A DNA stretch of 64,000 nt from Anaerocolumna aminovalerica (GTDB lineage: Bacteria; Bacillota; Clostridia; Lachnospirales; Lachnospiraceae), in assembly GCF_900115365.1 (NCBI RefSeq), contig NZ_FOWD01000007.1, positions 62,001-126,000 of the forward strand, written 5' to 3'. Both the position numbers and the translations under genes were made by a program. A model generated the notes under the pieces. That model did not search any database. It was not told the DNA's origin and saw nothing but the letters and a program-made list of their open reading frames with translations. This document shows, one piece after another, positions 455 to 49,420 of this stretch (positions within the stretch are counted from its first letter, which is position 1; each line of letters begins with the position of its first letter).

Positions 455-485
455 GAGGCGCTAAAATGCCGGAATTGAGGATATC
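455..485 (+). repeat. Start-codon-linked hairpin repeat, copy A (short form)
   Basis: This spacer runs directly from the stop codon of the regulator to the ATG of the kinase. It contains GGCGCTAAAATGCC (imperfect hairpin), then GGAATTGAGG and five bases before ATG. It matches the 3' half of the elements at 6729-6808, 15135-15213 and 49340-49420. In all four copies the hairpin ends 15 nt before the ATG and GAGG lies 5 nt before the ATG. Only the second hairpin of the full element is present here. Confidence 0.7.
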
Positions 486-2237
486 ATGCAGAAAAAGTTA
501 TTAGTTAGCTTTGTGGCTATTATATTTATTGCAATCGGTATCTCTATTGGTTCTTTTTGGATCAGAGGCTATCAATTTATTGATATGCAGAGCCAGGAAT
601 CTCATTTGACACAGGCACAGTTAATTGGAGATATCTTTTCGAAAGAGCCTTTTGCTTCTACCATAGATTTTCATGATTTTGTGGAAGAATACAGTGAAAA
701 ATACAGGGTAAGAATTACAATTATTGATAAATCAGGTGAAGTACTTGCAGATTCCAGTACTTCTGGGCATTTGGAAAATCATAAGGACAGAGATGAAATT
801 ATAGGTGCTTTAAAGGGAGAACATGTAACGGTAAACCGATATTCTCAAACCATGAAGAAGAATTACTCTTATAGTGCGGTACCGGTATCTAATGGTTCGT
901 TTAATGGAGTACTGCGTGTATCTTTGCCTTTATCCGCTTTATCTAAATTTGATAATGAGTTATTTAAAGCTACCATCTATGCAATTATTATATGTTTTCT
1001 GATTGCTACATTTGCGGCACTGGTGTTTACTAATATTTTGTTAAAGCCTATAGATGAAGTAACTAAAGCAGCAGTGAGAATTTCGGAAGGAAATTATAAA
1101 ACAAAGATTTATACCAGGGAAAAGAACCAAATTGGAAGACTGGCAGGTGCCTTTAATACTATGACAACAAACCTGAAAGAAACCATTGACAGTCTTACAC
1201 AAAGAAATATCGAACTGGAAGCTATGTTAACCAGTATGACCGGCGGTGTTGTGGCTATTGATGACTCCAATGAAATTCTATTCTTTAACAAAGCATTTTG
1301 TGATATTGTAAGACCTGTAAGCAATAAAATGCAAGGGCAGTCTTTATATAATATATTAAGAAATGCTGCCATATTCGATGCCATAGATGAGGTTAGAAAA
1401 ACCAATACCAACGTTACCATGGAAGGAATGTTGTTGTCGGACACCAATAAAAATATACGGGTTACAGCTACTCCGCTGGGAAGAGAAGATAAGAAGTGGT
1501 TTGGAGTATTGCTTATTATTGAGGATGTAACCCAGATTAAGAAATTAGAGCGTATGCGAAGCGACTTTGTATCTAATGTAACCCATGAATTAAAGACACC
1601 CCTTACCTCTATTCGAGGATTTATAGATACTTTAAAGAATGGTGCAATCAAAGATGAAAAAGTTGCAGCTAAATTTATTGATATTATAGATATTGAAGCA
1701 GAACGTTTATACGGTCTGATACAGGATATCTTACTGTTATCTGAGATTGAGTCCAAAAAAGATTATGATACCCAGCCTGTTGATATAAACCAATGTGCTT
1801 TAGAGGTTATTGACTTGTTGGAACCTAAACTTAACGGCAAGGTTGAAATAACATTCGAACCTCAACCAAAATTAAGACCGTTTATCTGTAATCCGGGACG
1901 GATGAAACAACTGCTTATTAATTTACTGGATAATGCAATCAAATATACGGAAGAAGGTAGAGTATCCCTAACTTGCCAGGAAGAAACAGACAGACTTATT
2001 ATTAAGGTAAAAGATACCGGAATTGGTATGGAGAAAGAACATCTATCCAGAATCTTTGAAAGATTCTACAGGGTAGATAAAGGAAGAGCCCGGAAACAAG
2101 GGGGAACCGGTCTGGGATTATCTATAGTCAAACATATTGTAGAATTATATAACGGGACTATTTATGTAGACAGCCAATTAGGCCAGGGAACGGAATTTGT
2201 GATTCAATTACCGTATATTTCTGAAAATGAATCATAG
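486..2237 (+). CDS. Membrane sensor histidine kinase (PhoR/WalK-like)
   Basis: This is a 583-residue sensor kinase. A membrane segment lies at about residues 6-26, then an extracytoplasmic sensor region of about 130 residues, then a second membrane segment near 165-187. A HAMP linker (KPIDEVTKAAVRISEGNY), a PAS domain (about 245-350) and the HisKA helix with VTHELKTPL follow; the phospho-accepting His is residue 367. The ATP-binding domain shows the N box (NLLDNAIKYT), G1 (DTGIGM), F box (IFERFYR) and G2 (GTGLGLSI). It phosphorylates the regulator encoded just upstream. The order TM-sensor-TM-HAMP-PAS-HisKA-HATPase is that of PhoR/WalK kinases; the signal is unknown. Translation is probably set by the GAGG within the repeat at 455-485. 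Confidence 0.95.
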   Translation: MQKKLLVSFVAIIFIAIGISIGSFWIRGYQFIDMQSQESHLTQAQLIGDIFSKEPFASTIDFHDFVEEYSEKYRVRITIIDKSGEVLADSSTSGHLENHKDRDEIIGALKGEHVTVNRYSQTMKKNYSYSAVPVSNGSFNGVLRVSLPLSALSKFDNELFKATIYAIIICFLIATFAALVFTNILLKPIDEVTKAAVRISEGNYKTKIYTREKNQIGRLAGAFNTMTTNLKETIDSLTQRNIELEAMLTSMTGGVVAIDDSNEILFFNKAFCDIVRPVSNKMQGQSLYNILRNAAIFDAIDEVRKTNTNVTMEGMLLSDTNKNIRVTATPLGREDKKWFGVLLIIEDVTQIKKLERMRSDFVSNVTHELKTPLTSIRGFIDTLKNGAIKDEKVAAKFIDIIDIEAERLYGLIQDILLLSEIESKKDYDTQPVDINQCALEVIDLLEPKLNGKVEITFEPQPKLRPFICNPGRMKQLLINLLDNAIKYTEEGRVSLTCQEETDRLIIKVKDTGIGMEKEHLSRIFERFYRVDKGRARKQGGTGLGLSIVKHIVELYNGTIYVDSQLGQGTEFVIQLPYISENES

Positions 2238-2313
2238 AAAGAGAAAGAGGGGATTGCCGCTTTTAATAATGTTTAAAAGAAGTAATAAATTAAAATTGAA
2301 AAGAAAAATACGA

Positions 2314-2374
2314 AACTGTCATTCTGGTATAGCATTCAGTTTAACTGATATTATCCTCAGAATGACAGTTTTTT
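2314..2374. repeat. Palindromic TGTCATTCTG repeat acting as terminator, copy 1
   Basis: AACTGTCATTCTG at 2314-2326 pairs perfectly with CAGAATGACAGTT at 2358-2370, followed by a T run. It lies between the convergent kinase and DUF1461 genes and looks like an intrinsic terminator. The arm sequence is shared with elements at 25779, 31582 and 55386. Confidence 0.75.
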
Positions 2375-2390
2375 ATAGACGTCTTTTTAT

Positions 2391-3065
2391 TTATTTGTAA
2401 TAAATGGTTCTGCGCCTGCGGTATTGAACCCTACTGTTTGTCCAAAAGTAGGATATAAGAAGAAGGATACTGCCCAGAAGGACAAAAGCGATGATTACCA
2501 GTAAGCTGTGTAAAAAGAATGTAGCTGGCAGAATGGTAATTACCGGATCTTTGGCTGGGTCAAAAATCCATAAATCATTTCGGAAAAATATCTTGTGGAA
2601 TAATAGGAATATAGCGTCAAAGTTTATAATACTTCCTAATGCGGCTATAACAGGTATTACTAAAACGGTAATAGAAGATACTAATAAATAGCTGTTATCT
2701 TTTTTACTACGTTTATAAAATATAATCAATAAACTGATTATAATGGATATAGCAGCAATATAATAAAAAGCGGTAAATATAGTTTTAACCTCTGCAAAAT
2801 GTTGTAATCCCCCAGGGGAAGAGGGAAGACCGGGGAGTTTCAAATCTCCTTTATAAAAGGGTGAATTATACCGGATCAAGGCATCATAATTTTCAATAAT
2901 TACATCTTTCTCCAACCCTGATGTTTGGCTGATATTCAAACGATCTATATCCAGATAATATATAAATCTAAAATTAACAGCAGCTATAACACCAATGGAT
3001 ATAAATAATAAGGTGAAGACGAAACCAATTAATATATCTGTTATTTTAAACTTTCTCATAAACAC
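2391..3065 (-). CDS. DUF1461 / TIGR01906-type integral membrane protein
   Basis: This 224-residue protein has four predicted membrane spans: one near the N-terminus (about 10-30), two in the middle (about 100-120 and 128-150), and one near the C-terminus (about 185-212). A long extracytoplasmic loop after the first span contains SPFYKGDLKLPGLPSSPGGLQHFAEVK cut here in two motifs: a DALIRYNSPF stretch and an LQHFAEVK stretch. Both are typical of the DUF1461 family as I recall it. Function is unknown in that family. The gene is monocistronic and convergent with the upstream kinase. Upstream lies an AT-rich spacer shared with the start of the next, divergent operon. Confidence 0.75.
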   Translation of the reverse strand: MFMRKFKITDILIGFVFTLLFISIGVIAAVNFRFIYYLDIDRLNISQTSGLEKDVIIENYDALIRYNSPFYKGDLKLPGLPSSPGGLQHFAEVKTIFTAFYYIAAISIIISLLIIFYKRSKKDNSYLLVSSITVLVIPVIAALGSIINFDAIFLLFHKIFFRNDLWIFDPAKDPVITILPATFFLHSLLVIIAFVLLGSILLLISYFWTNSRVQYRRRRTIYYK

Positions 3066-3278
3066 TCCTATCTAGTTATATATATATATTTGCAATTCTA
3101 CTTAATAACTTTTAATATATAATATGAGTAGAATTATACAACATTGTTTTTACAAATTCAATGAAGTTATTTGCTAAAGCACATAAATACTTGGTTAAGA
3201 TTAAAGGAAAATTAAAGGTTTATAGTTTAGTTTTACTATAGAAAGCAGTACGAGCATGCTTTCAGAAAGGAGCGGCCT

Positions 3279-3974
3279 ATGAAAATCCTCTACGTTGAAG
3301 ACGAAAAATATATGGCCCGTGCTGTAGCACAAGTATTACGAAAAAACAACTACAGCGTGGACTTAGCTTATGATGGCGAAAACGGACTTGACTTGGTTTC
3401 TTCCGGCTTATACGACATTGTTATACTGGATATTATGCTGCCCAAATTAGACGGAATCGGTGTTCTGCATGAAATGAGGAAGCGCAGTATTCTGACCCCG
3501 GTAATACTTCTGACTGCGAAAGGAGAAACGGAAGATAAGGTAAAAGGGCTGGACAGCGGAGCAGATGATTATTTGGTAAAACCCTTTCAAACAGAGGAAC
3601 TAATGGCTAGACTTCGTGCGCTGGGACGGCGGCGGGGACAGTTTACCGCTGATAACATTCTTTGCTATGGCGACATTGAATTAAATTACAACACCCTGGA
3701 TTTATTAGGAAATGGGCAGACATTTCACCTGACGTTAAAAGAGAGCCAGCTTCTGGAATTACTGATTACCAACAAGGGGCAAGCAATTACCACTGAGATA
3801 ATTATTGAAAAACTGTGGGGATGGAATTCTGATACGGAGGACAGTCACGTTCAGGTACAGGTGGCGTTCTTGCGCAAGAAATTATCATTAATAACAAAGC
3901 GGGTAAAAATCAAAACAGTGCGGGGGATCGGCTATATGCTCATACTGGACGAGGAAGTAACCACTGATGTTTAA
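3279..3974 (+). CDS. OmpR-family response regulator
   Basis: The 231-residue protein has a complete receiver domain with acidic pair (VEDE, residues 6-9), phospho-acceptor Asp51 in VILDIMLPKLDG and Lys in DDYLVKPF. A winged-helix DNA-binding domain runs from about 130 to 225 (VQVQVAFLRKKLS, KTVRGIGYML). The ATG follows a good Shine-Dalgarno (GAAAGGAG). The 3' end overlaps the kinase gene by 8 bp, so the two are translationally coupled. Next downstream are VTC, DUF4956 and CotH genes, which are the likely regulated functions. The DNA from here to about 8750 looks richer in GC and in CGG/GCC-type codons than the flanks, which suggests a different origin. Confidence 0.95.
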   Translation: MKILYVEDEKYMARAVAQVLRKNNYSVDLAYDGENGLDLVSSGLYDIVILDIMLPKLDGIGVLHEMRKRSILTPVILLTAKGETEDKVKGLDSGADDYLVKPFQTEELMARLRALGRRRGQFTADNILCYGDIELNYNTLDLLGNGQTFHLTLKESQLLELLITNKGQAITTEIIIEKLWGWNSDTEDSHVQVQVAFLRKKLSLITKRVKIKTVRGIGYMLILDEEVTTDV

Positions 3975-5253
3975 GAAGCTTCGCAACAATATGATGTTAT
4001 TCAATATGCTGACGGTTTCTCTCGTTATGCTGGCTGCATTTACTGTGATATATCTTGTGACATACAGCAATATTGAACGGGAGAATCAGCAGCGGTTAAA
4101 ATCCGTATCAGCTATGTTCTTCGTACCGAACCACACACCGCCCGCTGGTGTGACCAACGGAGATTTGGAACCGCCTACTGCATCGGAACGTTTTTCAGTG
4201 GATTATGGCGTTTCTTTCGTATTATTTGTCAAAGATGGCAGGCTTGAGAACGTCAATAGCCAGCTTGATTTTGAGTATAGCGTTTATAGGGAGGCTTTTG
4301 AAAAAGCAGGGGCAGCAGATAGGGGCAAGATAACCCTAGCAGATAGAGAATGGCTCTTTGCGGTTGCTCCTGCACCGCCGCCGAAGGGAGAAAATTTAAA
4401 CAGGTTACCAGGTGATATGCAATACAACCGCATTGTTTTTCTCGACATAACAAATGGAACCAGGATTCTACGGACCCTTATGCTCACTCTTACCAGTGTG
4501 GGGGTTGGAGTGCTGCTGGCTCTTTTCTGGCTTTCTTACCGATTTGCCCTTCGTGCTGTTAAGCCTATTGAAGAAAGCTACAATAAGCAAAAGCGTTTTA
4601 TTGCGGATGCTTCTCATGAACTGCGGACACCTCTCGCTATTATTGGTGCAAATGTAGATGCCATTGAAAGCAATGGTGAAGAATCGGTTGATAGTCAAAA
4701 GGAATGGTTTGAATATATTCACGCTGCATTGAATCGAACAGGCAGGTTGTTAGATGATTTATTATATCTGGCCAAGTCTGATGGACCCAAAAACGAAGAC
4801 AATCTTCCCTTTGATTTAAGTATGGTCTGTGATAGGGTCTGTGCGTCTATGGAAGCGGTGTTGTATGATAACGGCGTATCTATGGAAACGGATATTGAGA
4901 AAGACGTAATCGCTGTTGCAGATAGTGAAAAAATCAGTCAAGTCTTCTATATTCTGCTGGATAATGCCAGTAAATACACCCCCCCTGGCGGCAAAATCCT
5001 GTTTACCCTTACCCGTACAAATGACAGGGCTGTTGCTGGAGTAACCAACTCCGGTGATGGCATTGGGGTGGAAGATTTGCCAAAAGTTTTTGACCGATTT
5101 TATCGCACCGATGCTTCCCGTTCCACTGAAACAGGTGGATTTGGTTTGGGACTGTCTATTGCCAAGGCCATTGTAGACCGCTCCGGAGGGGTGATAACTG
5201 CCGAGAGTAGGGGTGGGTTGACTACATTTACTGTAAAATTAAAACTAGGCTAA
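3967..5253 (+). CDS. Sensor histidine kinase
   Basis: This 428-residue kinase pairs with the regulator it overlaps. Membrane spans lie at about residues 11-32 and 165-185, with a short extracytoplasmic domain of about 130 residues containing proline-rich patches (NHTPPAG, APAPPPKG). There is no clear full HAMP domain; the second span leads quickly into the HisKA helix with ASHELRTPL, where the phospho-accepting His is residue 217. The ATPase domain shows the N box (LLDNASKYTPP), GDGIG, FDRFYRTD and GFGLGLSIAK. It is smaller and simpler than the kinase at 486. Co-location suggests that it senses a surface or envelope condition controlling the VTC/CotH genes, which is inference. Confidence 0.93.
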   Translation: MFKKLRNNMMLFNMLTVSLVMLAAFTVIYLVTYSNIERENQQRLKSVSAMFFVPNHTPPAGVTNGDLEPPTASERFSVDYGVSFVLFVKDGRLENVNSQLDFEYSVYREAFEKAGAADRGKITLADREWLFAVAPAPPPKGENLNRLPGDMQYNRIVFLDITNGTRILRTLMLTLTSVGVGVLLALFWLSYRFALRAVKPIEESYNKQKRFIADASHELRTPLAIIGANVDAIESNGEESVDSQKEWFEYIHAALNRTGRLLDDLLYLAKSDGPKNEDNLPFDLSMVCDRVCASMEAVLYDNGVSMETDIEKDVIAVADSEKISQVFYILLDNASKYTPPGGKILFTLTRTNDRAVAGVTNSGDGIGVEDLPKVFDRFYRTDASRSTETGGFGLGLSIAKAIVDRSGGVITAESRGGLTTFTVKLKLG

Positions 5254-6703: not shown

Positions 6704-6728
6704 CGTTACTTAACAATAACAGGGAAGT

Positions 6729-6808
6729 TTTTTCAATCAGCAATTGTGCTGGCGCATAAAGTTGCTGTTACTATTTAGAGGAGCTAAAGCGCTAGAAATG
6801 AGGATACT
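6729..6808 (+). repeat. Start-codon-linked two-hairpin repeat, copy B
   Basis: The first hairpin lies at 6738-6767 (CAGCAATTGTGC pairing with GCATAAAGTTGCTG) and the second, weaker, near 6780-6793 (GAGCTAAAGCGCT). AGAAATGAGGATACT follows and the ATG of the CotH gene starts at 6809. The layout equals copies C and D: two hairpins, 15 nt from the second hairpin to ATG, GAGG 5 nt before ATG. Substitutions in the arms are partly compensated, which suggests that the folded form matters. Confidence 0.7.
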
Positions 6809-8749
6809 ATGTCAAAACATAAATATACTACTACTATTTGCGTTACAATCGTTATCGCAATGCTTGCTATAACCGTAGCATTTATGGCAAGCCGGAATTT
6901 CGGCGTAACCATAGCACATATGCAGCCTGCCTATGCCGAGAAGCTGTTCAGCACCGACAGGGTTCACACAATTGATATTGTGGTAAAAGAATCTGACTGG
7001 GACCAAATGATAGCAAACGCAGCACAAAAGGAATATATACAGTGTTCTGTTATAATTGATAATGAATCCGTTAAGAACGTGGGAATCCGTCCCAAAGGTA
7101 ATTCATCCCTGTTTATGATAACAAGTACAGACTCAGACAGATATAGCTTTAAAATCGAGTTCGATCACTATGAGAAGGGCAAAAACTATTTCGGGCTTGA
7201 CAAACTTGCATTAAATAATATTGTGCAGGATAATACCTATATGAAGGATTACGTCACTTATCAGATGATGAATGCCATGGGTGCAGACGGGCCACTTTCA
7301 AGCTTCATCTGGGTGACGGTCAATGGTGAGGACTGGGGTCTGTATCTGGCCGCCGAGGGCATTGAGGAATCTTTCGCACAGCGTGTTTATGGTAACGATT
7401 TCGGTGCGATTTATAAACCTGACAGTATGAATATGGGTGGCAGGTTAGGCGGTGAAAATGACAAGGGTTTCCATGAAAAGGGACAAATACCGGAATGGGA
7501 TGGTGAAATGCCACAGATGCAGGAATCTGCCAACGGGCAAGATGGCATCCTGCAGCAACAAGACGGTGAAAATATAAAATTAAGAGATAATGATTTGGGA
7601 ATGGATGGCGGGGCTTCCCTCATCTATTCGGACGATAATCCGGACAGTTACTCCGATATTATCGACAATGCTGTATTTGATATATCAAATGCAGACAAAG
7701 CCCGCTTGATTGCCGCTATAAAACAGCTGAACGCTGGTGAGGACATTGACCAAGTGGTGGATGTGGACGAAGTTATACGCTATTTTGTTGTACATAACTT
7801 CGTACTGAACTCCGACAGTTATACAGGCAGTATGACCCACAACTATTATCTTGCTGAAAATGACGGTAAACTTAGTATGATTGCATGGGATTACAACCTT
7901 GCTTTCGGAGGTATGGGGGGCATCGGCGTAGGAAGGTTTGGTAATGCCCAGGAAACGGAAACAGCCACAGATAATGCCACCTCTCTAGTGAACTATCCCA
8001 TAGATTCACCTATGCTTACTGGATCTGCCGAAGACAAACCCATGATTGCATGGATTTTTGATAACCAGGCATATCTGGCTAAGTATCATGAAGTTTACGC
8101 CCAGTATATGGAGTATTTCAACAGCGGTAAATTTACCGAAATGTATGATAATGCTATAACTCTCATTTCGCCTTATGTTGAAAAAGACCCCTCAGCGTTC
8201 TGCACCTACGAGGAATTTCAAAAGGGCAGCGCAGCTTTACGTGAGTTTTGTTTGTGCAGAGCTGAGAGCATAAACGGTCAGCTTAAGGGTACAATCGCTA
8301 TAACAAGTGAGCAGCAGACCGCCACAGCCAATGCCGGATTCATTGACGCTTCGGATATTAATATTGAAAGTATGGGTTCAAATTCCATGGGGTTCGGTGG
8401 TGCTGGGGGCGGGCAAATTCCAGTTTGGAACAGAAACGGCGGAACCAAAATCTCCGACTCCTCTGTAAATGATGGAAATGAAACTACAATGCCAGAGGAT
8501 GAAGACAATTTCACACCGCCTGACCCACAGGTTGATTTTCCCTCTGAAGTTAGGGAGGCAGGGCAGAACAAACCAGATACAGCCCCAGGGACCGGGACAG
8601 ATAATAACAGGCCTATGTTACCAAAGATAGAGGCAGGCTCGTTGGTAGAATCTTCATCCTTCCCAATATCAGTAAACGAAGCGGTACTCCTGCTGATATG
8701 TATGGTTTTGCTGATTGGGGGCGTACTATTTGCAAAAAGGCGGCGGTGA
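6809..8749 (+). CDS. CotH-kinase-family cell-surface protein
   Basis: This 646-residue protein has an N-terminal signal or anchor segment (about residues 9-29) and a second membrane span near the C-terminus (about 625-642) followed by KRRR, so most of it is outside the membrane. The central part matches the CotH fold: VKESDWDQMI, a VGIRPKGNSS motif, a segment around WGLYLAAEGIEESFAQR, and LSMIAWDYNLAFGG. CotH in Bacillus spores is an atypical protein kinase; activity here is inferred. The region around residues 205-260 is Gly/Met/Gln-rich and the region 530-620 is Pro/Asn/Glu-rich, so both are probably disordered. It is the last gene of the VTC-DUF4956-CotH cassette. Confidence 0.85.
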   Translation: MSKHKYTTTICVTIVIAMLAITVAFMASRNFGVTIAHMQPAYAEKLFSTDRVHTIDIVVKESDWDQMIANAAQKEYIQCSVIIDNESVKNVGIRPKGNSSLFMITSTDSDRYSFKIEFDHYEKGKNYFGLDKLALNNIVQDNTYMKDYVTYQMMNAMGADGPLSSFIWVTVNGEDWGLYLAAEGIEESFAQRVYGNDFGAIYKPDSMNMGGRLGGENDKGFHEKGQIPEWDGEMPQMQESANGQDGILQQQDGENIKLRDNDLGMDGGASLIYSDDNPDSYSDIIDNAVFDISNADKARLIAAIKQLNAGEDIDQVVDVDEVIRYFVVHNFVLNSDSYTGSMTHNYYLAENDGKLSMIAWDYNLAFGGMGGIGVGRFGNAQETETATDNATSLVNYPIDSPMLTGSAEDKPMIAWIFDNQAYLAKYHEVYAQYMEYFNSGKFTEMYDNAITLISPYVEKDPSAFCTYEEFQKGSAALREFCLCRAESINGQLKGTIAITSEQQTATANAGFIDASDINIESMGSNSMGFGGAGGGQIPVWNRNGGTKISDSSVNDGNETTMPEDEDNFTPPDPQVDFPSEVREAGQNKPDTAPGTGTDNNRPMLPKIEAGSLVESSSFPISVNEAVLLLICMVLLIGGVLFAKRRR

Positions 8750-8900
8750 TTTGTGACAAATTAATTTTTGATGAATGCCTTTGAGTAAATTTAAGCTTAT
8801 ACAATGGAAATCAATTTGAATCATAAGCTGTTGTTATGTTGTTTATTAATAAAAAGTAATTGAAAATCACTAGTTTATCAGTTACACTTAATTAAGATGA
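8750..8900. other. AT-rich spacer before ZTP riboswitch
   Basis: No gene is seen. The stretch carries the CotH gene's 3' flank and probably the purH promoter, but no convincing -35/-10 pair could be fixed. Confidence 0.4.
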
Positions 8901-8975
8901 ATTGTATGACTGGCGGAAAATGAGAATAAACTCACAGGGAGTACAATGTTTAAAATATGCCGACCGCCTGGGCAG
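8901..8975 (+). ncRNA. ZTP (pfl) riboswitch aptamer
   Basis: ATTGTA at 8901 pairs with TACAAT at 8942 to form P1. TGACTGGCGGAA follows, then a TGAG/CTCA hairpin and CAGGGAG, which match the conserved 5' core of the ZTP aptamer. After a linker the second conserved block GACCGCCTGGGC appears at about 8962-8973. The core matches the pfl motif I know, and the regulated gene purH uses the precursor ZMP/ZTP, as expected. Ligand binding should turn on the downstream gene. Confidence 0.9.
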
Positions 8976-9052
8976 CCTAAGATAACCTGACATATAAAAT
9001 GTGTTTTTACATTCTATGTGTAAGATTATTGGGTTACCTGGGTGGTTTTTTT
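8960..9052 (+). terminator. Riboswitch-controlled terminator of purH leader
   Basis: The 3' part of the aptamer (ACCGCCTGGGCAGCC, from 8963) can pair with GGGTTACCTGGGTGGT at 9031-9046, followed by a run of T. Pairing would consume the aptamer's second conserved block, so ligand binding and termination are mutually exclusive, as in known ZTP switches. Confidence 0.8.
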
Positions 9053-10756: not shown

Positions 10757-10762
10757 GCAGAT

Positions 10763-13127: not shown

Positions 13128-15119
13128 ATGACTATAAGAGAATTTGAAAATTATGATCCCTCTCATTTTTATGATATGAAAAGTCAGCTTAAGGATTATA
13201 TCTATGATAGAACACGTAAGTCCTTGGAAAAGGGTAGAATCCACCGTTCTCAGATAAGCACAAAAGAACAGCTTAAGAAGCGGCAGGCTTATATTAGAAA
13301 ATTGTTCTTAGACTCTTTGGGAGGCATTCCATCTTGTGAAACACCTTTAAAGCCTCAAGTTACGGGTACTATAACAGGGAATGGATTCCATATTGAAAAA
13401 GTGATTTATCAATCAAGACCGGATTGTTTTGTAACGGCTAACCTGTATATTCCTAATGGATTGCAAAAGCCCTCCGGGGCAGTTTTGTTCCTTTGCGGCC
13501 ATGATCCGCTGGCTAAACATAGTGAGGAGTATCAGATGGTATGCCAATGTCTTACTAAAAGAGGGCTTATCGTGTTAGCTTTGGATCCCATTGGGCAAGG
13601 GGAACGGCTTAGCTATTATGACAATGGAATAGAAGTAATAAATCAGGGAACCACGGAACATACCCATGCAGGATTTCAATGCCTTATGACAGGGTATCCC
13701 TCTGCCAGATATTTTCTCCATGATGCCCTGCGGGGAATTGATTATCTGCTGACCCGCCCTGAAGTAGATCCGGCAAATATTGGAGTAACCGGCAATTCAG
13801 GGGGAGGAACCCAGACCAGTATGCTTATGCTGTGGGATGACAGGGTCAAAGCTTTTGCTCCCGGAACATTTATTACAGGTTATGAAGAAAATTTGTTGAC
13901 AGGGGTACCTCAGGATGCCGAGCAAAACTGGCCAGGGTTAATTCAATATGGTTTTGATCATGAAGATATACTGTTAAGTGTTGCACCAAAGCCTGTTGCA
14001 GTTTTGGCAGCATCCTATGATTTCTTTCCAATAGAAGGAACCAGAAAAACCGTGGAAGCAGCCCGAAAATATTGGGAAATATGGGGTAAGGAAGAAGATT
14101 TACATTATATAGAGGATGTTTCAAAACATAGCTATTCTTATCAGCTAGCACAGGCAGCTGGGGAATTTTTTGCAAAGACATTGGGAGTTACTGCCGGAGA
14201 GGCAATTCCTTACGAAGATATAAAACTTTTTGAACAGTCGGAACTTTGGTGTACCGGTAAAGGGCAAATCAGAGAGGAGAGAAAGAACACAAGATTTATT
14301 TTTGAAGAAAATCTAACATTGTTAACCCGGCTGCAGGAGGAAAGAGAAATTCAGGAGGAGGAAAACAGAAAAAAGGACAGAGTATATAACTGGCTAAAGG
14401 AACAAGTCTTTTATCAGCGTGTTCCATGTCCTGTAAATTTAAGAGATATTGGGGAATTCGACTATTATAATTTGTCGGTTAAATCTTATATATGGAGATC
14501 CCAGGAAAGAATAATGAATCATTGTCTTGCTTTTAAAGACCATACCTTTCATAATACAGCATCCTGTCCCATAATTGCTGTTTGGGATGGAGGAACCGGC
14601 AAATTAGAGGAGCATATAGATTGGATCAAAGGACAGTGCCAAAAAGGAAAAACAATATTTGTTTTAAATACTTCCGGTGTTGGAGGGATTTCGCCATATC
14701 CTATAGGAATCCGCGGCATGGGGGATATGTTTGGGACCATGTATAAACTTGCAGATGATCTGATCCGGTTTGGAGATAGCTTATGTGCACTGCGTATATA
14801 TGATGTAATTCGAATGGTGGATATGCTGCAGGAATTTGACGGAACGGATCATGAGAACATCCATATATATGCTCATGGAAAACAGGGTGTGTATGGTATT
14901 TTGGCAGCATTTATTGACAAAAGAATAAAAAACCTATCCATAGAACAGCCTATGCCAAGTTACGGGAGCTGGGTAGGTGACCGCTGTTATACTATGGAAG
15001 ATGCTATGAGCATTATCTTACCTCAGGCCCTTAAATTTTTTGACCTGGATGAAATATATGAATGGTTGATGAAGGAAGAAAGATTGGAACAACCTTTAAG
15101 AAAAGAAAGGGGAAAGTAG
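13128..15119 (+). CDS. Large alpha/beta-hydrolase (esterase-like) with degenerate second half
   Basis: The 663-residue protein has two hydrolase-like halves. In the first (about 60-350) an oxyanion strand AVLFLCGHDPLAKHS, a DPIGQGER turn and the nucleophile motif GNSGGG (Ser224) are followed by a candidate acid and His near the VSKHSYSYQL segment (about residue 330). The second half (about 420-640) repeats the fold pattern but has HGKQG where GxSxG would be expected, so it is probably inactive. No signal peptide is seen, so it acts inside the cell. It starts 17 bp after the first oxidoreductase and 94 bp before the second. Deacylation of an imported sugar is the simplest role; similar proteins are often annotated as acetylxylan-esterase-like. 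Confidence 0.75.
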   Translation: MTIREFENYDPSHFYDMKSQLKDYIYDRTRKSLEKGRIHRSQISTKEQLKKRQAYIRKLFLDSLGGIPSCETPLKPQVTGTITGNGFHIEKVIYQSRPDCFVTANLYIPNGLQKPSGAVLFLCGHDPLAKHSEEYQMVCQCLTKRGLIVLALDPIGQGERLSYYDNGIEVINQGTTEHTHAGFQCLMTGYPSARYFLHDALRGIDYLLTRPEVDPANIGVTGNSGGGTQTSMLMLWDDRVKAFAPGTFITGYEENLLTGVPQDAEQNWPGLIQYGFDHEDILLSVAPKPVAVLAASYDFFPIEGTRKTVEAARKYWEIWGKEEDLHYIEDVSKHSYSYQLAQAAGEFFAKTLGVTAGEAIPYEDIKLFEQSELWCTGKGQIREERKNTRFIFEENLTLLTRLQEEREIQEEENRKKDRVYNWLKEQVFYQRVPCPVNLRDIGEFDYYNLSVKSYIWRSQERIMNHCLAFKDHTFHNTASCPIIAVWDGGTGKLEEHIDWIKGQCQKGKTIFVLNTSGVGGISPYPIGIRGMGDMFGTMYKLADDLIRFGDSLCALRIYDVIRMVDMLQEFDGTDHENIHIYAHGKQGVYGILAAFIDKRIKNLSIEQPMPSYGSWVGDRCYTMEDAMSIILPQALKFFDLDEIYEWLMKEERLEQPLRKERGK

Positions 15120-15134
15120 GTTGAAAAGCAAGCT

Positions 15135-15213
15135 TTTTAACCGGCAATTTGTGCTGAAACACAAAATTGCCATTATTATTAAAAGGTGCTGAAGCACCAG
15201 AATCGAGGTTAAA
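15135..15213 (+). repeat. Start-codon-linked two-hairpin repeat, copy C
   Basis: The first hairpin is GGCAATTTGTG (15143-15153) with CACAAAATTGCC (15160-15171). The second is GGTGC (15185-15189) with GCACC (15194-15198). AGAATCGAGGTTAAA then leads to ATG at 15214. GAGG is the only Shine-Dalgarno for the gene. Copy D at 49340 has the same arrangement with different arm bases that still pair. Confidence 0.75.
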
Positions 15214-16440
15214 ATGAAAAAATATGTTATAGCAGGCGCAGGCATGAGAGGTTACTACATGTTTGGAAAGCGCATTTTGGCAGAAGAATATAAAGATTAT
15301 GCTTCCATAGAAGGAATCTATGATATAAATCCGGTACGGGCCCGTGAGTTTGCAAAGGATTGCGGTGAGATTCCGGTATATGATGATTTTGACAAAATGC
15401 TGAAAGATGTGAGGCCGGATTATGTAATTGTAACCACGGTAGATTGTTATCATCATGAATACATCATAAAGGCTTTGGAAGCCGGATGTAATGTGATTTC
15501 AGAAAAGCCCATGACTATTGACCATGAAAAATGTAATGCAATCTTAGAAGCAGAGAAAAGAACAGGAAAGCAGGTACAAGTTACATTTAATATGCGGTTC
15601 ATGCCATATATGCAAAAGATTAAGGAATTGATACAAAGTGGGATTATTGGAAAAGTTCTTACCGTTGATCTGGAGTGGCATTTAGATACCAGACATGGTG
15701 CGGATTATTTTAGAAGATGGCATAGATATATTGAAAAAAGCGGCGGACTATTATTACATAAATCAACACACCATTTTGACATTATTAATTGGTGGCTGAA
15801 TTCTTATCCGGAGGAAGTAAGTGCATTGGGAACCAGGAACTTTTATGGACCTGTCCGGGAAGAAAGAGGTACCAGATGTTTAACCTGCCGGTATAAAGAC
15901 ACCTGTGAATTTTACTGGAATATAGAAGACGGAGGAGATCCTTTTTACAAGAGATTCTACCTTGAAGCAGAACATGAGGATGGTTACATCAGAGATTCCT
16001 GCGTTTTTGATGAAAGCATTGATATTTATGATAATATGGCGGTGAATGTAAAGTATAAATCAGGAGCATTGTTATCCTATTCCCTTATTGCTCACAGTCC
16101 CTATGAGGGATGGAATGCTTCCATTAATGGAAGCGAAGGAAGGCTTGAGGTTGGCGAAATCTATTCCGGACATGGTGAAGAAGATAACTGCAATCATATA
16201 AAGTTTTATAATAGAAAGGGAGAACTGATCACCTATGATATTCCCAAATTAAAGGGCAGCCATGGCGGAGGAGATGATAAGCTGATACGAATGCTGATTA
16301 AGAATGACATAAAGGATGACCTGGGAGTTTTTGCTGCTTCTATAGATGGTGCGATGTCCTTACTAATAGGTGCCGCAGCCAATATTTCCATTACAAAGAA
16401 GCAAGTTGTTAGTATTGAGGATTTGTTGAAACGCCCATGA
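15214..16440 (+). CDS. Gfo/Idh/MocA-family oxidoreductase with Cys cluster (second copy)
   Basis: The 408-residue protein has the same architecture as the one at 11887 but is clearly diverged. The nucleotide-binding loop is VIAGAGMRGYYM, the EKP motif is VISEKPMTID, and the active-site helix has KSTHHFDIINWWL with the expected His-Asp. A cysteine cluster CLTCRYKDTC (about residues 227-236) again interrupts the substrate domain. Two different oxidoreductases around one esterase suggest successive or paired oxidation and reduction steps on the same substrate. The start is the ATG following the repeat with its GAGG. An ABC importer starts 46 bp after the stop. Confidence 0.9.
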   Translation: MKKYVIAGAGMRGYYMFGKRILAEEYKDYASIEGIYDINPVRAREFAKDCGEIPVYDDFDKMLKDVRPDYVIVTTVDCYHHEYIIKALEAGCNVISEKPMTIDHEKCNAILEAEKRTGKQVQVTFNMRFMPYMQKIKELIQSGIIGKVLTVDLEWHLDTRHGADYFRRWHRYIEKSGGLLLHKSTHHFDIINWWLNSYPEEVSALGTRNFYGPVREERGTRCLTCRYKDTCEFYWNIEDGGDPFYKRFYLEAEHEDGYIRDSCVFDESIDIYDNMAVNVKYKSGALLSYSLIAHSPYEGWNASINGSEGRLEVGEIYSGHGEEDNCNHIKFYNRKGELITYDIPKLKGSHGGGDDKLIRMLIKNDIKDDLGVFAASIDGAMSLLIGAAANISITKKQVVSIEDLLKRP

Positions 16441-21562: not shown

Positions 21563-21625
21563 TATTAAATTTACATATTGTGCTGTCACCCAAATATGGG
21601 GTATTTCGGCAGAATGGAGATTTCT

Positions 21626-22813
21626 ATGAAGAGAATCTTATTTAAAAATGCCAGTATTATAACAACTACAGGTATTAAGCAGGGAGAACTTTTGACGGCA
21701 GGAAGCAAAATTCATAGAGTTGTCTATAACGGTGTTATTGAAGAAACTTATGATGAAATTATAAATGTAGAGGGCAAATACCTTTCTCCTGGGTTTATTG
21801 ATATCCATACCCATGGAGGAGGCGGATATGATTTTATGGATGGAAGCTTAGATGCTATTTATAACGCTTCTAAGTCACATATGGAGTATGGAACTACATC
21901 TATTGTACCTACCACCATTACAGGTACCCACAAATCTTTGCTTGATTTTATAGACTTATTTAATCAAGCAGACCTAAGCAGAGAAAGTTGTCCCAATATT
22001 TTAGGATTACACCTGGAAGGTCCGTATTTTTCATATAATCAAAGAGGAGCTCAAGATCCAAGGTATTTAAGAAATCCGGATAAAAAAGAATATTTGGAGG
22101 TGTTAGCTAAAACAGACCGAATTATTCGCTGGTCTTTTGCAGTAGAATTAGAAGGCTCAAAAGATTTTCTCGGTGTACTTAGAGAAAACAATATTGTAAG
22201 TTCCCTGGCACATTCGGACGCTACTTGCGAAGAAGTATATAAAAGTTTTAAAAACGGACTGGGGGCATTAACTCATTTTTATTCTGCTATGTCAACGGTA
22301 ACCAGAAAGAATTCTTACCGGGTGGCAGGGGCTGTGGAAGCCGGTTATCTCCTTGATGATTTATATGTGGAAGTGATTGCAGACGGGAAGCATTTGCCCA
22401 AAGAATTACTTCAGTTAATTTATAAGGTGAAAGGCCCGGATAAAATATGTCTTGTTACAGATTCTATGCGGGCGGCAGGTATGCCTGACGGCATCTATGT
22501 CTTAGGCAATAAGGATATTGGATTGGAGGTAATTGTGGAGGATGAAGTAGCAAAACTACCGGACAGAAGTTCCTTTGCAGGCAGTGTGGCAACTGCAGAC
22601 AGGCTTGTACGGACCTTTTACAGATTAACGGAGGCCCCTTTATATCAGGTTGTGAAGATGATGACTTTTAACCCGGCAAGGCTCCTTAAGATAGATTCAT
22701 CCAAGGGGTCTATTGAAGAAGGCAAAGATGCAGATTTGATTATTTTTGATGAGAATATTCTGGTTGATTTTGTTATGGTAAAAGGAAGGATTAATAAAAA
22801 TCAGATGAAATAG
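21626..22813 (+). CDS. nagA: N-acetylglucosamine-6-phosphate deacetylase
   Basis: The 395-residue amidohydrolase removes the acetyl group from N-acetylglucosamine-6-phosphate. Metal-site and substrate motifs are visible: GFIDIHTHGGGGYDFMDG, LHLEGPYFS with the metal Glu, LAHSDATCEE, ALTHFYSAMS, and LVTDSMRAAGMPDG with the catalytic Asp. The ATG at 21626 is preferred because GGAG precedes it by a normal distance and the protein begins with the usual MKRILFKNA; an in-frame ATG 48 bp upstream would add an unrelated tail. It is transcribed with nagB across a 63-bp spacer holding a small hairpin. Confidence 0.93.
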   Translation: MKRILFKNASIITTTGIKQGELLTAGSKIHRVVYNGVIEETYDEIINVEGKYLSPGFIDIHTHGGGGYDFMDGSLDAIYNASKSHMEYGTTSIVPTTITGTHKSLLDFIDLFNQADLSRESCPNILGLHLEGPYFSYNQRGAQDPRYLRNPDKKEYLEVLAKTDRIIRWSFAVELEGSKDFLGVLRENNIVSSLAHSDATCEEVYKSFKNGLGALTHFYSAMSTVTRKNSYRVAGAVEAGYLLDDLYVEVIADGKHLPKELLQLIYKVKGPDKICLVTDSMRAAGMPDGIYVLGNKDIGLEVIVEDEVAKLPDRSSFAGSVATADRLVRTFYRLTEAPLYQVVKMMTFNPARLLKIDSSKGSIEEGKDADLIIFDENILVDFVMVKGRINKNQMK

Positions 22814-29371: not shown

Positions 29372-29562
29372 AAAGATAAGGTTCCTGGAATGTTCGACAC
29401 TCTCGTTATTTTGAACCTACATGATATAAAATGGGACTCCTACATCTATAAGATTATGTCAGGCCACCGTTTGCAGTGGAAGACAGAGGCTTATATGCGG
29501 AAACCCACCTAGCTTTGCTAGGAGTCAAAATACGAGAAACGGCGTTTCGGGTTCATTAACCA
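29372..29562 (+). ncRNA. ssrS: 6S RNA
   Basis: A roughly 190-nt structured RNA. The terminal stem pairs CCTGGAATGTT with AACGGCGTTTCGGG; a second stem pairs CTCGTTATTTTGA with TCAAAATACGAG. A central region with little pairing follows, and a CCTAGC-TTT-GCTAGG hairpin lies near the 3' end. The 5' TGGAATGTTCGACACTCTCG and 3' ACGAGAAACGGCGTTTCGGG line up with the two conserved ends of E. coli 6S RNA (UGAGAUGUUCG, GCGGCAUCUCGG). 6S RNA sequesters the housekeeping RNA polymerase in stationary phase. It has its own promoter and terminator and lies in front of nadE. Confidence 0.85.
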
Positions 29563-45844: not shown

Positions 45845-45892
45845 AAAAGAATATATCCAAGGAAATAAGCTCCAAAGATATATTCTTATGAA
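45845..45892 (-). terminator. Terminator of the ROK gene
   Basis: On the minus strand AGAATATATC pairs with GATATATTCT, followed by TTTTTG and a further run of seven T. Confidence 0.75.
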
Positions 45893-45940
45893 TAAGAGAA
45901 TTTAATAAAAGATAATTTAATTCTATTAATAAGCGAATAT

Positions 45941-47128
45941 TTATTTTGAAGGATATCTTTTTGGCGTTTTATAATATTCGTAACTGGTATAATTAATATC
46001 GTTAATATTCAGGAAGTTCTTAATTGAAATGCAGATTCCACCAAGTAAAACAGCTGAAATTCCAAGTGTAGAGGGGACAAGGTTTAATTTACTTTTTATG
46101 TTCTTATTTAGCCTTTCCTTTATCTGATCAATCAGTTGAGGTAAATAAGTGGTAAAGGAACTGTTGATAATAACAATATCGGAATTAAAGGCATTTATAA
46201 TATTATTGACGCATACTGCCATATATTTTGTAAAGGTATCTGCAGTTTTCATTGCAACTTCATCGCCATTGTTATACAGGGATAAAAATTGTTCAAAACT
46301 AACCTGTTCCATGTTTTTTTCTCTGGCAAATTCCTTTAGAAGAGACTGTTCGGAAAGATATTGTTCCAGACATCCATGATTTCCGCAAGGACATTCCCTG
46401 CCATCTACTTCTACAATGGTGTGACCGATTTCTCCAGCATGGCCAAGGCTTCCGGTATACAAGTTTTGATTGATAATAACCCCCATACCAATACCGGAGT
46501 ATATCATTATACTGCTCATATTTTCATAGTTGTATAGAAATGCTTTTTCTCCTAGAACAGAAAGATTTGCTACATTTTCTAAAATAACAGGCGTTTGAAA
46601 ATGTTCTTCAATTGCTCCGGCCAAATCTACATTTTCCAAGTTATAATGAGGTGTAAACTGTATAGTATTATTCTGTATAACACCGTGAATTCCTAAAGTA
46701 ATTCCGATTAATCCATAAGGAAGAGCTTTTATATCCGGCTCCATATCTTCGATTAATTGTATTAAAACAGGGGTAATGTCTTCTTTCTTACCCGGAGTTT
46801 TTATTTGCCTTAAGCTTTTTTTCTCTCCTATTAAATCCGTCATAATTGCAGAAATGGTTTCGATTCCTATGTCTATGCTGATGACATATCCTGCATCCTT
46901 ATTTAAGCTTAGCAGGATTGGCTTTCTTCCAACTAAAGTGTCATCACATCCATTCTCCAGAACTAGTTTTTTCTGTATCAAATCCTGGACAATATTAGTT
47001 ATAGTTGCTTTAGTCAGCCCTAATTTTTTGGCAATGGCTGCTCTTGAAATATATCTGGAACCAAAGATGGTTTCTAATACTAAAGTGGTATTTATGTCAC
47101 GAATTAATTCTTTACTTCCGGTTATCAT
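45941..47128 (-). CDS. ROK-family transcriptional repressor (NagC/XylR-like)
   Basis: The 395-residue protein has an N-terminal winged helix (RAAIAKKLGLTKATITNIVQD) and a C-terminal ROK domain: ISIDIGIETISAIMTDLIGE (phosphate loop), ILENVANLSVLGE, SIMIYSGIGMGVI and CPCGNHGCLEQY, the zinc-binding cysteine motif. It is a sugar-responsive repressor; targets are unknown, though amino-sugar genes lie at 20837. The start MITGSKEL is chosen because AAAGGA lies upstream; in-frame starts further up would add an unrelated tail. Upstream and divergent is the FRG gene. Confidence 0.92.
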   Translation of the reverse strand: MITGSKELIRDINTTLVLETIFGSRYISRAAIAKKLGLTKATITNIVQDLIQKKLVLENGCDDTLVGRKPILLSLNKDAGYVISIDIGIETISAIMTDLIGEKKSLRQIKTPGKKEDITPVLIQLIEDMEPDIKALPYGLIGITLGIHGVIQNNTIQFTPHYNLENVDLAGAIEEHFQTPVILENVANLSVLGEKAFLYNYENMSSIMIYSGIGMGVIINQNLYTGSLGHAGEIGHTIVEVDGRECPCGNHGCLEQYLSEQSLLKEFAREKNMEQVSFEQFLSLYNNGDEVAMKTADTFTKYMAVCVNNIINAFNSDIVIINSSFTTYLPQLIDQIKERLNKNIKSKLNLVPSTLGISAVLLGGICISIKNFLNINDINYTSYEYYKTPKRYPSK

Positions 47129-47434
47129 GGTATTCTTTCCTTTATTCTTAATATATATATATTTTAACATACAAATGATTAAGGTGTCAAAAGTATGGCA
47201 AGTTACATTTAAATACAAAATTTGGCAATGTTGCAAAAAACGACACTTTTTTTGTTTTTTTTCATACTATATCTATAATACTAATCCTTATTTAACCTTT
47301 CCAAGAAATCAGCCAAAACCCATATTTCCAAGTATGTAACTTCCCTTTGTTTTTCTGCTGGGTTTTTTGGAGACTTATAATCGGGTTTAGTATAGACAAT
47401 GCTCTTGTCAAAGTTGTTAGAAAGGGGATAGGAT
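47129..47434. other. Divergent promoter region, no gene
   Basis: AT-rich stretch between the ROK and FRG genes. It has a T-rich run at 47246-47262 and no hairpin of note. An open frame across part of it on the plus strand lacks protein features. Confidence 0.4.
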
Positions 47435-48400
47435 ATGACAGATGCCATGCATATGGAAAACATGGATTCTGAAGGGAAAAAAACAAAAAGCACATCAGAA
47501 GCTTTAAAAATGGAAGGACAAAATATATGCGACCAGAATCAAACCAATAATATTAAGGAAGTGATACGTGTAAAATCTGTGGCTGAATATCTGGAGGCGG
47601 TAGATATAATATTTACTACCTTATGTAATATTAATCAAGGAAGTAATTGTCAATTATGGTATCGGGGCCATGCCCAGGAATCCTTTGATTTGCTGCCTAC
47701 CATTACAAGAAAGAGAAATGGGTTACAGCTAAACCCATTATTTGAAACTGCTTTTCTTTCTAAATTTAAATCCTCTGCCATAGCCTACGTAGAAAAGCTT
47801 CCTAAATTTCCTTTAAATGATGATGTAAATGCTTATTGGAACTGGCTTTTTATATTAAGACACTATGGGCTGCCTGCCAGAATATTGGATTGGAGCAGAG
47901 ATGCCCTAACCGGTTTATTTTTTGCAACAAACCCTGAGGATCCCAGTTTAACACCGGGAGTGGATGCAGCTGTTTGGCTCCTGAATCCGGTAAAATTGAA
48001 CGAAAGTTTTTCTTTTCACAGTTTTTTAAAACCCGGGTATATTCCCAGTGTAGAAGAGCCCTCCTTTAACCTGTTTTTTGGACCGGAAAGTGATATACTA
48101 AATACGTTAAAGCCTGCAGCAGCCATCGGGCCATTAAATACTACCAGAATTGTAGCCCAAAGAGGCACATTTACCGTATTTCCAAGAGTGAAAGCACTTC
48201 TTGCATTGAATAAGTTTGAAGATTCGGATAAGTACCTGACTAAAATAATTATTGACCACGAAAGTATAGATAAAATTCAAACCCAGTTAAGACACTATGG
48301 AATAACAAGACTGGCACTTTATCCGGATATGGAATCAATAGCCTCAGAAGTGTTCCAGGAAGTCATTGATGAAGGAATCAATACCACTGAAATAGATTAG
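47435..48400 (+). CDS. FRG-domain protein
   Basis: This 321-residue protein contains an FRG domain: LWYRGHAQESFDLLPTITRK with the (F/W)RG motif, LRHYGLPARILDWS, and LTGLFFATNPEDP. The N-terminal 50 residues are poorly ordered (MTDAMHMENMDSEGKK). Function of FRG domains is unknown; they are found in stand-alone and in defence-associated genes, but no defence neighbour is present. AAAGGGG precedes the ATG. The ROK gene is divergent and hisA follows after 130 bp. Confidence 0.88.
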   Translation: MTDAMHMENMDSEGKKTKSTSEALKMEGQNICDQNQTNNIKEVIRVKSVAEYLEAVDIIFTTLCNINQGSNCQLWYRGHAQESFDLLPTITRKRNGLQLNPLFETAFLSKFKSSAIAYVEKLPKFPLNDDVNAYWNWLFILRHYGLPARILDWSRDALTGLFFATNPEDPSLTPGVDAAVWLLNPVKLNESFSFHSFLKPGYIPSVEEPSFNLFFGPESDILNTLKPAAAIGPLNTTRIVAQRGTFTVFPRVKALLALNKFEDSDKYLTKIIIDHESIDKIQTQLRHYGITRLALYPDMESIASEVFQEVIDEGINTTEID

Positions 48401-48530
48401 CGGTGGTTAGAGGTTCAAGCATCGCCAGCACTACCAATACTCTTGCGGTTTTATTTGAATTATGTTATTATTTCCACGAAAGCAGATAAAAATACTGTCT
48501 GCAAGGAAAAGCATTAGATTGGAGTCGGAA

Positions 48531-49319
48531 ATGAAATTCAGACCTTGTATTGATATTCATAACGGAAAGGTGAAACAAATAATAGGAGGCAGCCTGCTGG
48601 ATAAAGACAATCAGGTGAAAGAGAACTTTGTGTCCCAGCAGGAGGCCGACTATTACGCAGCTTTATATAAAAAGGAACACTTAAAAGGCGGACATATAAT
48701 TCTGTTAAATCCCAGTAATACCACTTATTACGAAGAGGATTGTATTCAGGCAAGAAAGGCTTTGGAAGAATATCCGGGAGGTTTTCAGATAGGAGGAGGG
48801 ATTACCCATGAGAATGCTGCCGGTTTCCTGAATATGGGAGCCTCTCATGTTATTGTCACTTCCTTTGTATTTAAAGATGGAAAGATTTATTATGAGAATT
48901 TGGACAAACTGGTTCAGGCTGTAGGAAAAGAAAAATTGGTTCTGGATTTAAGCTGTAGAAAAAAAGATGGGTCTTATTATATTGTAACAGACCGTTGGCA
49001 GAAATTTACCCAGGTTAAGGTCAATAAGGAAACACTGAATGAATTGGCCGGGTATTGCGATGAATTTTTGATTCATGCAGTAGATGTGGAAGGAAAATCC
49101 ACAGGTATTGAAACCGAATTAGTTGCTTTACTTGGTGGCTGGAAAGGGATTCCCATTACTTATGCAGGAGGAGTGGGCAGCTTTGGGGATTTGGAAACTT
49201 TGTACAAGCTGGGTAAAGGACAACTTGATGTTACCATTGGAAGTGCTTTGGATTTATTTGGAGGCTCCATGGAGTATAAGAAAGTGCTTCAAAAGATTCA
49301 TCAGTTGAGCAGGCAATAA
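48531..49319 (+). CDS. hisA: Phosphoribosylformimino-AICAR-ribotide isomerase, eukaryotic HIS6 type
   Basis: This 262-residue TIM-barrel protein catalyses the fourth step of histidine synthesis. It reads like yeast HIS6 rather than bacterial HisA: CIDIHNGKVKQIIGG at the start, NFVSQQEADYYAALY, FQIGGGI, LDLSCRKKDGSYYI, EFLIHAVDVEGKSTGIE, and TYAGGVGSFGDLE. Bacterial HisA begins with PAIDL and lacks these. No other his gene is in the window. ATG at 48531 has GGAG 6 nt upstream; an in-frame ATG 69 bp earlier is less likely. It is probably an acquired or ancient family split; see findings. Confidence 0.9.
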   Translation: MKFRPCIDIHNGKVKQIIGGSLLDKDNQVKENFVSQQEADYYAALYKKEHLKGGHIILLNPSNTTYYEEDCIQARKALEEYPGGFQIGGGITHENAAGFLNMGASHVIVTSFVFKDGKIYYENLDKLVQAVGKEKLVLDLSCRKKDGSYYIVTDRWQKFTQVKVNKETLNELAGYCDEFLIHAVDVEGKSTGIETELVALLGGWKGIPITYAGGVGSFGDLETLYKLGKGQLDVTIGSALDLFGGSMEYKKVLQKIHQLSRQ

Positions 49320-49339
49320 AAAGAAAGATGGAAGAGAAC

Positions 49340-49420
49340 TTAGGTTAACCGGCAATTTGTACCGGATTACAAACTTGCTTCTTTATTAAATGGCGCTAAA
49401 GTGCCGGAATTGAGGTTACT
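49340..49420 (+). repeat. Start-codon-linked two-hairpin repeat, copy D
   Basis: The first hairpin is GCAATTTGTA (49352-49361) with TACAAACTTGC (49368-49378). The second is GGCGC-TAAA-GTGCC (49392-49405). GGAATTGAGGTTACT then leads to ATG at 49421. GAGG is 5 nt before ATG. Confidence 0.75.

Follow-up and report, generated by a model that had tools for sequence, protein, structure and literature searches.

What places the same structured sequence directly in front of unrelated genes? This question is raised by a 64,000-nucleotide (nt) stretch of the Anaerocolumna aminovalerica genome (contig NZ_FOWD01000007.1, positions 62,001 to 126,000), referred to here as the window, in which a sequence-only reading had pointed to four copies of a two-hairpin repeat, each supplying a ribosome site to a different gene. 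All four segments were present, and each proved to be a member of one repeat family, which we named family A. In all four copies, the last hairpin ended 15 nt before an ATG and a GAGG lay 5 nt before it, as had been claimed. The two stem-loops of that description were both real and corresponded to hairpins 2 and 3, but the complete element has three, hairpin 1 having been overlooked. The first copy indeed consisted of the last hairpin and the ribosome site only. The copies were located as follows.

457–480, plus strand: family A copy 1, 3′ part only; hairpin 3 at 457–470, GAATTGAGG at 472–480; sensor histidine kinase ATG at 486.
6711–6803, plus strand: family A copy 2, hairpin 1 degenerate; hairpin 3 at 6780–6793, GAGG at 6800–6803; CotH protein ATG at 6809; matched by covariance model R1.
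15116–15208, plus strand: family A copy 3, complete; hairpin 1 at 15119–15142, hairpin 2 at 15143–15171, hairpin 3 at 15185–15198, GAATCGAGG at 15200–15208; Gfo/Idh/MocA oxidoreductase ATG at 15214; matched by R1.
49324–49415, plus strand: family A copy 4, hairpin 1 degenerate; hairpin 3 at 49392–49405, GAGG at 49412–49415; methyltransferase ATG at 49421; matched by R1.

The family A unit was about 95 nt long and comprised hairpin 1, hairpin 2, an AT-rich linker, hairpin 3, and GAATCGAGG followed by one base. The 5′ part of a complete unit read TA, hairpin 1 (GGTTGAAAAAA-loop-TTTTTTCAACC), and hairpin 2 (GGCAATTTGTGC-loop-GCACAAATTGCT); in the 3′ part, the linker was followed by hairpin 3 (GGYGC-TAAA-GCRCC), GAATYGAGG, one base, TA, two bases, and ATG. 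The orientation of the copies was always that of the gene. We consider it probable, at roughly three chances in four, that the copies of family A are miniature, non-autonomous mobile elements, which insert at start codons and carry a ribosome site of their own. The sequence-only reading had suggested that the module is mobile or spreading and determines translation initiation, and this was supported by a copy number restricted to few lineages, empty sites in a relative, head-to-tail arrays, and a Shine-Dalgarno sequence of its own at fixed spacing. Constant positions, TA at the junctions, and covariation within the hairpins were likewise observed.

Copy number and placement at start codons

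In the 4.62-Mb draft genome to which the window belongs (G000), hairpin 3 together with the adjoining motif gave 112 matches at up to 2 mismatches, against none for a reversed-pattern control. The ten-base motif that had been described as shared was, on its own, at chance level in the window (allowing up to 1 mismatch, 15 matches vs 15.8 expected), and only its combination with the hairpin stood well above chance. The covariance-model search that had been proposed was run with R1, built without the spacer or the ATG, and gave 149 matches in G000 at E values up to 10. A first list selected by hairpin 3 held at least 101 distinct copies and was recounted with a full-length profile, also without spacer or ATG. 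This profile, searched over the fetched stretches at E values up to 0.05, gave 138 copies, a few of which may be false.

A start was counted when the codon opened an open reading frame (ORF) of at least 50 codons. It lay exactly 5 nt after GAGG in 107 of the 138 copies and at 4, 6, 7, 9, or 12 nt in another 10, while 8 copies were internal to arrays and 13 had no start passing the filter. Reading of these 13 showed an ATG 5 nt away with a short ORF in 6, a following hairpin unit in 2, and neither in 5 (L136, L088, L155, L161, and L090). The second genome, G013, is a metagenome-assembled genome (MAG) of a congener and was covered in part, by 53 copies in fetched stretches out of 73 pattern matches in total. 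Its copies had a start at 5 nt (32) or 4 nt (1), were array-internal (14), or were rejected by the filter (6); among the last, 3 had an ATG 4 to 5 nt away and 3 were followed by another unit. Thus every one of the 53 copies adjoined a start or a further unit. In a third genome, G156, the distance from GAGG to the start was 5 nt in 10 of 11 copies and 8 nt in the other. The copies are thus neither few nor at random distances from start codons, either of which would have spoken against the first observation, and this observation is confirmed on a far larger scale than first noted. We know of no other mobile element with such precision of placement.

The distribution of family A among genomes was patchy. 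Among 14 congeners it was found only in G013 (73 matches; 81% complete), with no match in the other 13 (completeness 63 to 100%). The same search of 41 genomes gave one further match, a single one in G035, from another family. Across 397 genomes of the taxonomic family, matches at up to 1 mismatch were seen in G000 (69), G156 (9), and G185 (1). When about 85,000 species, each represented by one genome (records near the window possibly excepted), were scanned with a stricter exact pattern, hits fell on 15 contigs belonging to an uncultured Anaerocolumna MAG and on a single contig in each of two Lachnoclostridium phytofermentans records; strain KNHs2131 carries copies. Viral contigs, searched with two exact patterns, and plasmids and phages, searched with one copy as query, gave no match to family A. 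The G013 copies were fresher, with a mean of 0.85 mismatches per 24 nt (27 full copies) compared to 2.20 in G000 (54 full copies).

Empty sites and TA junctions

We joined 23 G000 gene starts into one query and searched it against G013. Ten places matched; one, at 71% identity, is probably a paralog and was left out. Among the nine orthologs kept, apt was occupied in both genomes and eight were free of the element in G013. (The names glyS, valS, apt, and RAYT are presumptive ones from our own reading of the sequences, apart from Pfam hits.) Five empty sites aligned well (glyS, L045, L024, L070, and L093) and placed the insertion at a TA two bases before the ATG (TA|NNATG), with TA on both sides. 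For example, at glyS the two genomes share the flanks TTATTGAAAGGAATGAAAGTA on the left and AGATGGAAAA on the right, and G000 has an extra 98 nt ending in GAATCGAGGTTA. At L045, the empty G013 site reads GGAGGGAATTA|ATATG, and the element lies at the bar in G000. The G013 sites GGAGGGAATTA|CAATG (L024) and GGGAGGATA|CAATG (L070) also agree with insertion at the bar, and at L093 (GAGGGATA|ATATG) G000 carries both a unit of another family, D, and a family A unit.

A TA at −4/−3 was present in 5 of the 8 empty sites, compared to 5 of 47 element-free window genes, a control with a crude choice of ORFs and one start (21626) set by hand. At occupied sites, TA was found at the right junction in 84 of 107 copies in G000 and 27 of 32 in G013, and at the left junction in 31 of 48 and 21 of 24, respectively. 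A further comparison of the two genomes added a G000 copy consisting of the 3′ part only, whose empty G013 ortholog reads TA-AA-ATG; positions in this comparison are biased, most of the G000 stretches having been chosen for carrying copies, whereas the set of 23 starts is unbiased. One unoccupied start in the window could also be compared.

50516–50540, plus strand: unoccupied start with an ordinary AAGGAG before ATG 50538 and no TA at −4; the G013 ortholog (L305) has family A behind another hairpin unit.

Old GGAGG-like motifs upstream of many copies made the native Shine-Dalgarno sequence a candidate target. In the five aligned empty sites, however, the insertion lay 3 to 9 nt from this motif but always equally far from the ATG, which rules the motif out; the start codon, not the Shine-Dalgarno sequence, sets the place. 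At filled sites, the gene's own Shine-Dalgarno sequence was shifted upstream and the GAGG of the element lay in its place.

These data suggest how the element may spread. It would enter in one orientation at the TA two bases before a start codon, leaving TA on both sides, and is presumably moved by an enzyme acting in trans. The native Shine-Dalgarno sequence would be moved upstream and GAGG would substitute for it at 5-nt spacing, so that the gene should still be translated, with the new ribosome site expected to work. Each insertion would also rebuild TA-NN-ATG, and more copies could thus enter at the same spot and arrays could grow at the gene side. A mobile element usually either stays out of genes or harms them. 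One that inserts downstream of the native ribosome site but ahead of the start codon, and brings a replacement site, could occupy even essential genes harmlessly, and the ribosome sites of many unrelated genes would become alike.

Selection alone might produce a similar picture if the element inserted at TA anywhere and only copies with GAGG rightly spaced before a start were kept, as the ribosome site there. Such retention would agree with TA at the junctions and with some family D copies that have no start at their end (L234, for example). However, the window holds 997 non-coding TA sites and only about ten starts with TA at −4, so that many copies elsewhere would be expected, and in the fresher G013 set none of the 53 was away from a start or another unit. 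We regard retention as doubtful. The placement of all 53 G013 copies at starts, directly or via a further unit, argues for targeting, with quick loss elsewhere possible, and we infer that insertion of family A itself, beyond retention, is specific for start codons. A more tentative extension is that translation initiation itself guides insertion, through ribosome-bound or mRNA-level targeting or some other guide, so that an element carrying its own ribosome-binding site would insert only at start codons and rebuild its own target; if so, even essential genes would be safe landing sites. The family amounts to a natural experiment on how translation starts, might become a tool for positioning ribosome sites, and gives a lead toward an unfamiliar way of finding start codons. 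Empty and filled pairs are available from G000 and G013.

The left junction of window copy 3 deserves a separate remark. The stop codon TAG of the upstream ORF (13128–15119), at 15117–15119 on the plus strand, spans the target TA and the first G of the element. With the copy removed, the same frame would, judging from the sequence, read TAA.

Arrays and shortened copies

Copies also stood in head-to-tail arrays with units near 95 nt and the junction GAGGTTA|GGTTG. The first member was truncated in 14 of the 16 arrays with a readable 5′ end, as would be expected if arrays grow on the side of the gene and older members lose upstream sequence. Among the 130 G000 copies that were not array-internal, 52 were full, 31 partial, and 47 had the last hairpin only. 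The 3′-only copies were not more diverged in hairpin 3 than the full ones (mean 1.51 vs 2.20 mismatches, p 0.17), and 29 of 36 had TA at the right junction. Two candidate origins can be named for them: deletion combined with selection on the ribosome site, and 5′-truncated insertion.

The second origin would follow if DNA copies were made from a transcript of the element and inserted, with the 3′ end fixed and the 5′ end variable. The length classes, the low divergence and right-junction TA of the 3′-only copies, and the constant orientation relative to the gene are all compatible with RNA-mediated insertion. Deletion of an unneeded upstream part in older copies explains the truncation equally well, however, and truncated copies were mostly the 5′-most members of arrays. 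We consider an RNA intermediate quite unlikely.

Two individual cases were noted. In an array of three (L015/L124; G000 contig 43, 98676–98957), a reading frame starts after the second member, in place of the 5′ part of the third (MKNKLIKKAM by eye). At L002, on the minus strand near 1501–1530, the upstream gene, by eye a transketolase subunit, apparently runs into a 3′-only element, and its C-terminus would be partly element-encoded.

Hairpin conservation and downstream genes

Across 49 copies, 91.5% of the cells of the hairpin alignment could pair, and 10 of 26 pairs were changed on both sides somewhere. Such two-sided changes occurred in 27 cells, compared to 8.9 in shuffles and 6 to 12 in slid controls; the sequences are related, so the shuffles overstate significance. 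This two-sided covariation indicates that the hairpins were kept during the spread of the element, be it as DNA or as RNA. All three hairpins formed in the predicted folds of three fresh G013 copies (z −3.9 to −4.9); GAGG was free in two of these and partly paired in the third. Among the window copies, copy 3 folded better than shuffled sequences (z −4.8), and copies 2 and 4 no better (z about −0.8 and −0.9). RNAalifold recovered only hairpin 3 from a first alignment, in which hairpins 1 and 2 were misaligned.

The downstream genes are unrelated, as had been stated for the window. We sampled 20 proteins, 4 from the window and 16 picked by hand from 40 random ones of 117, and saw no common function or shared pathway. 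They comprised a sensor kinase, CotH, oxidoreductases, a methyltransferase, ABC components, an FtsW/RodA/SpoVE protein, a class II tRNA synthetase (the gene called glyS above), a phosphoribosyltransferase, a D-Ala-D-Ala carboxypeptidase, NeuB, a Y-family polymerase, and others. A further gene with the element is valS, which has an ordinary Shine-Dalgarno sequence in the relatives read. The mean predicted unpaired probability of GAGG was 0.45 (45 G000 copies) and 0.47 (19 G013 copies), compared to 0.37 and 0.39 with shuffled upstream sequence. In these predictions, the hairpins do not systematically hide GAGG. No Rfam family was found at any copy searched. The two features expected of an RNA thermometer or riboswitch, a conserved structure that conceals the Shine-Dalgarno sequence and a match to a described RNA family, were therefore not seen.

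The sequence-only reading had also proposed a temperature- or protein-controlled switch. A regulatory RNA module, that is, a protein-bound or temperature-responsive leader that spread by co-ordinating its genes, would account for the hairpins kept by covariation and for the fixed position at the ribosome site. However, the 20 sampled genes share no function, GAGG is not sequestered, hairpin 3 stands alone in many copies, the copies searched matched no Rfam family, and orthologs do without the element. A module of this kind is improbable, and the proposed switch found no support. The simplest function of the element would be to keep its host gene translated.

Sister families

Families B, C, and D have other hairpins and likewise end in GGAG or GGAGG; B and C behave like A, and D only partly. 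Family B gave 17 matches in G000 and 7 in G013, with a start within 7 to 13 nt in 20 of 23 copies (at 13 nt in 14 of them). Family C gave 5 matches in G000, 5 in G003, and 2 in G013; the start followed GGAG by 6 to 7 nt in 11 of 12, and another unit came next in the remaining one. One family C copy lies in the window.

21589–21619, plus strand: family C copy, 3′ part, ending in GGAG; ATG at 21626; TT instead of TA at −4.

Family D gave 48 matches across 9 of the 15 genomes, 22 of them in G011. In the A-centred stretches, all 7 adjacent pairs of D and A had D on the 5′ side, and C lay 5′ of A once (L053). The reverse order was also seen, with an A remnant 5′ of a D unit (L093, E 0.05) and of a further unit, E (L134), and therefore no family is simply older than another. 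Unit E occurred in L187, L134, and L305. A possible additional family was noted at L317 (G013) and L066 (G000), the best match of one G013 gene, where G000 has a different hairpin, after which come AGATAGGAG and the ATG.

Search for a mobilizing enzyme

Miniature inverted-repeat transposable elements (MITEs) of IS630/Tc1-type transposons are small, non-autonomous, and flanked by TA at both junctions. Family A resembles them in all three respects and differs in its placement at start codons and in the lack of visible terminal inverted repeats: its ends, TA|GGTTGAAAA and GAATCGAGGT|TA, are not inverted copies of each other as judged by eye, without a repeat program. A search for one IS630-type transposase family (DDE_3, PF13358) found it in 1 of 15 genomes of the genus (G001) and not in G000, a draft, or G013, a MAG. 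TA on both sides agrees with a MITE of this type; the lack of visible terminal inverted repeats, and of a cognate transposase in the search for this one family, does not, and the fit is poor.

Mobilization of an ordinary single-strand DNA element by a Y1 transposase of the host (IS200/IS605 or RAYT) would explain the hairpins near both ends, the absence of visible terminal inverted repeats, and the fixed orientation to the target, and Y1 genes were found in G000, G013, and G156. However, inspection by eye of IS200-type copies in G156 and G000 showed different ends and a location at terminators, the G013 RAYT gene is flanked by its own repeat GGTGCCNGGCACC, and G010, with six family D matches (three of the same variant), has no Y1 match. 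Mobilization by such an enzyme is unlikely in our judgment. An IS200/IS605-derived element (PATE) was rejected because the ends of the inspected copies in L214, L217, L221, L223, and L224 differ by eye, and a REP/REPIN element with RAYT because the sole RAYT-like gene seen, in G013, is flanked by GGTGCCNGGCACC repeats and none was recognized in G000. The absence of DDE_3 in G000 and G013, the unrelated ends of the inspected Y1 elements, and the presence of family D in G010, where no Y1 match was found, together argue against the obvious enzymes.

The palindromes that flank the RAYT-like gene (Y1_Tnp; L212/L220, G013 contig 440) were seen in no other of 224 loci. IS200-type elements lie at many G000 contig ends (L223 and L224, for example), apparently behind terminators, and probably broke the assembly.

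Evidence at odds with a start-codon element

Several observations weigh against a mobile element specific for start codons. The 3′ part alone made up 47 of the 130 G000 copies. In family D, 30 of the 48 matches were read: a start followed in 8, another unit in 11, and neither in 11, and this weakens the start-codon rule. One of these last 11, L250, is in fact followed by an A unit; another family D copy, L234 (G000 contig 55, 34717–34748), ends at no start codon and lies upstream of an ordinary Shine-Dalgarno sequence. Three of the eight empty sites (L082, L084, and L009), all with poorly aligned flanks, have no TA at −4 in G013, nor does the unoccupied window gene at 50538, and TA was present at the right junction in only 4 of 10 copies in G156. 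Sequence, moreover, does not distinguish a duplicated TA from a TA that forms the end of the element. Neither a mobilizing enzyme nor an autonomous copy was recognized; the matches read for a left-end pattern gave short copies and family B.

Comparison with known repeats

Family A works like a miniature palindromic mobile element, yet it fails the tests run for a TA-target MITE and for REP/RAYT. Like REP/REPIN sequences with RAYT, as described in PMC3116915 and in passages of PMC3733652, it is short, palindromic, non-autonomous, present in many copies per genome, and arranged in tandem. REPs, according to the same passages, are placed mostly near the 3′ ends of upstream ORFs, whereas family A ends at start codons and carries a Shine-Dalgarno sequence; in addition, the RAYT seen here has other repeats. 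The pneumococcal BOX, RUP, and SPRITE repeats are likewise structured, interspersed, and modular and occur in a Firmicute, but the passages of PMC3049150 describe for them neither placement at start codons nor an own ribosome site for host genes. The TAACTGA repeats of Beggiatoaceae, in the portions of PMC4679880 consulted, lie mostly a few nucleotides upstream of putative start codons of genes without a common function and have a patchy distribution. They share with family A the near-start placement, the functionally unrelated genes, and the patchiness; they are, however, heptamer direct repeats without hairpins, compared to a 95-nt element with its own Shine-Dalgarno sequence and observed empty sites. 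No such element was described in the open-access literature searched, a scope outside which subscription papers and bioRxiv lay.

Elsewhere in the window, Rfam models identified a 6S RNA (29379–29557, plus strand) and a ZMP/ZTP riboswitch (8896–8980, plus strand).

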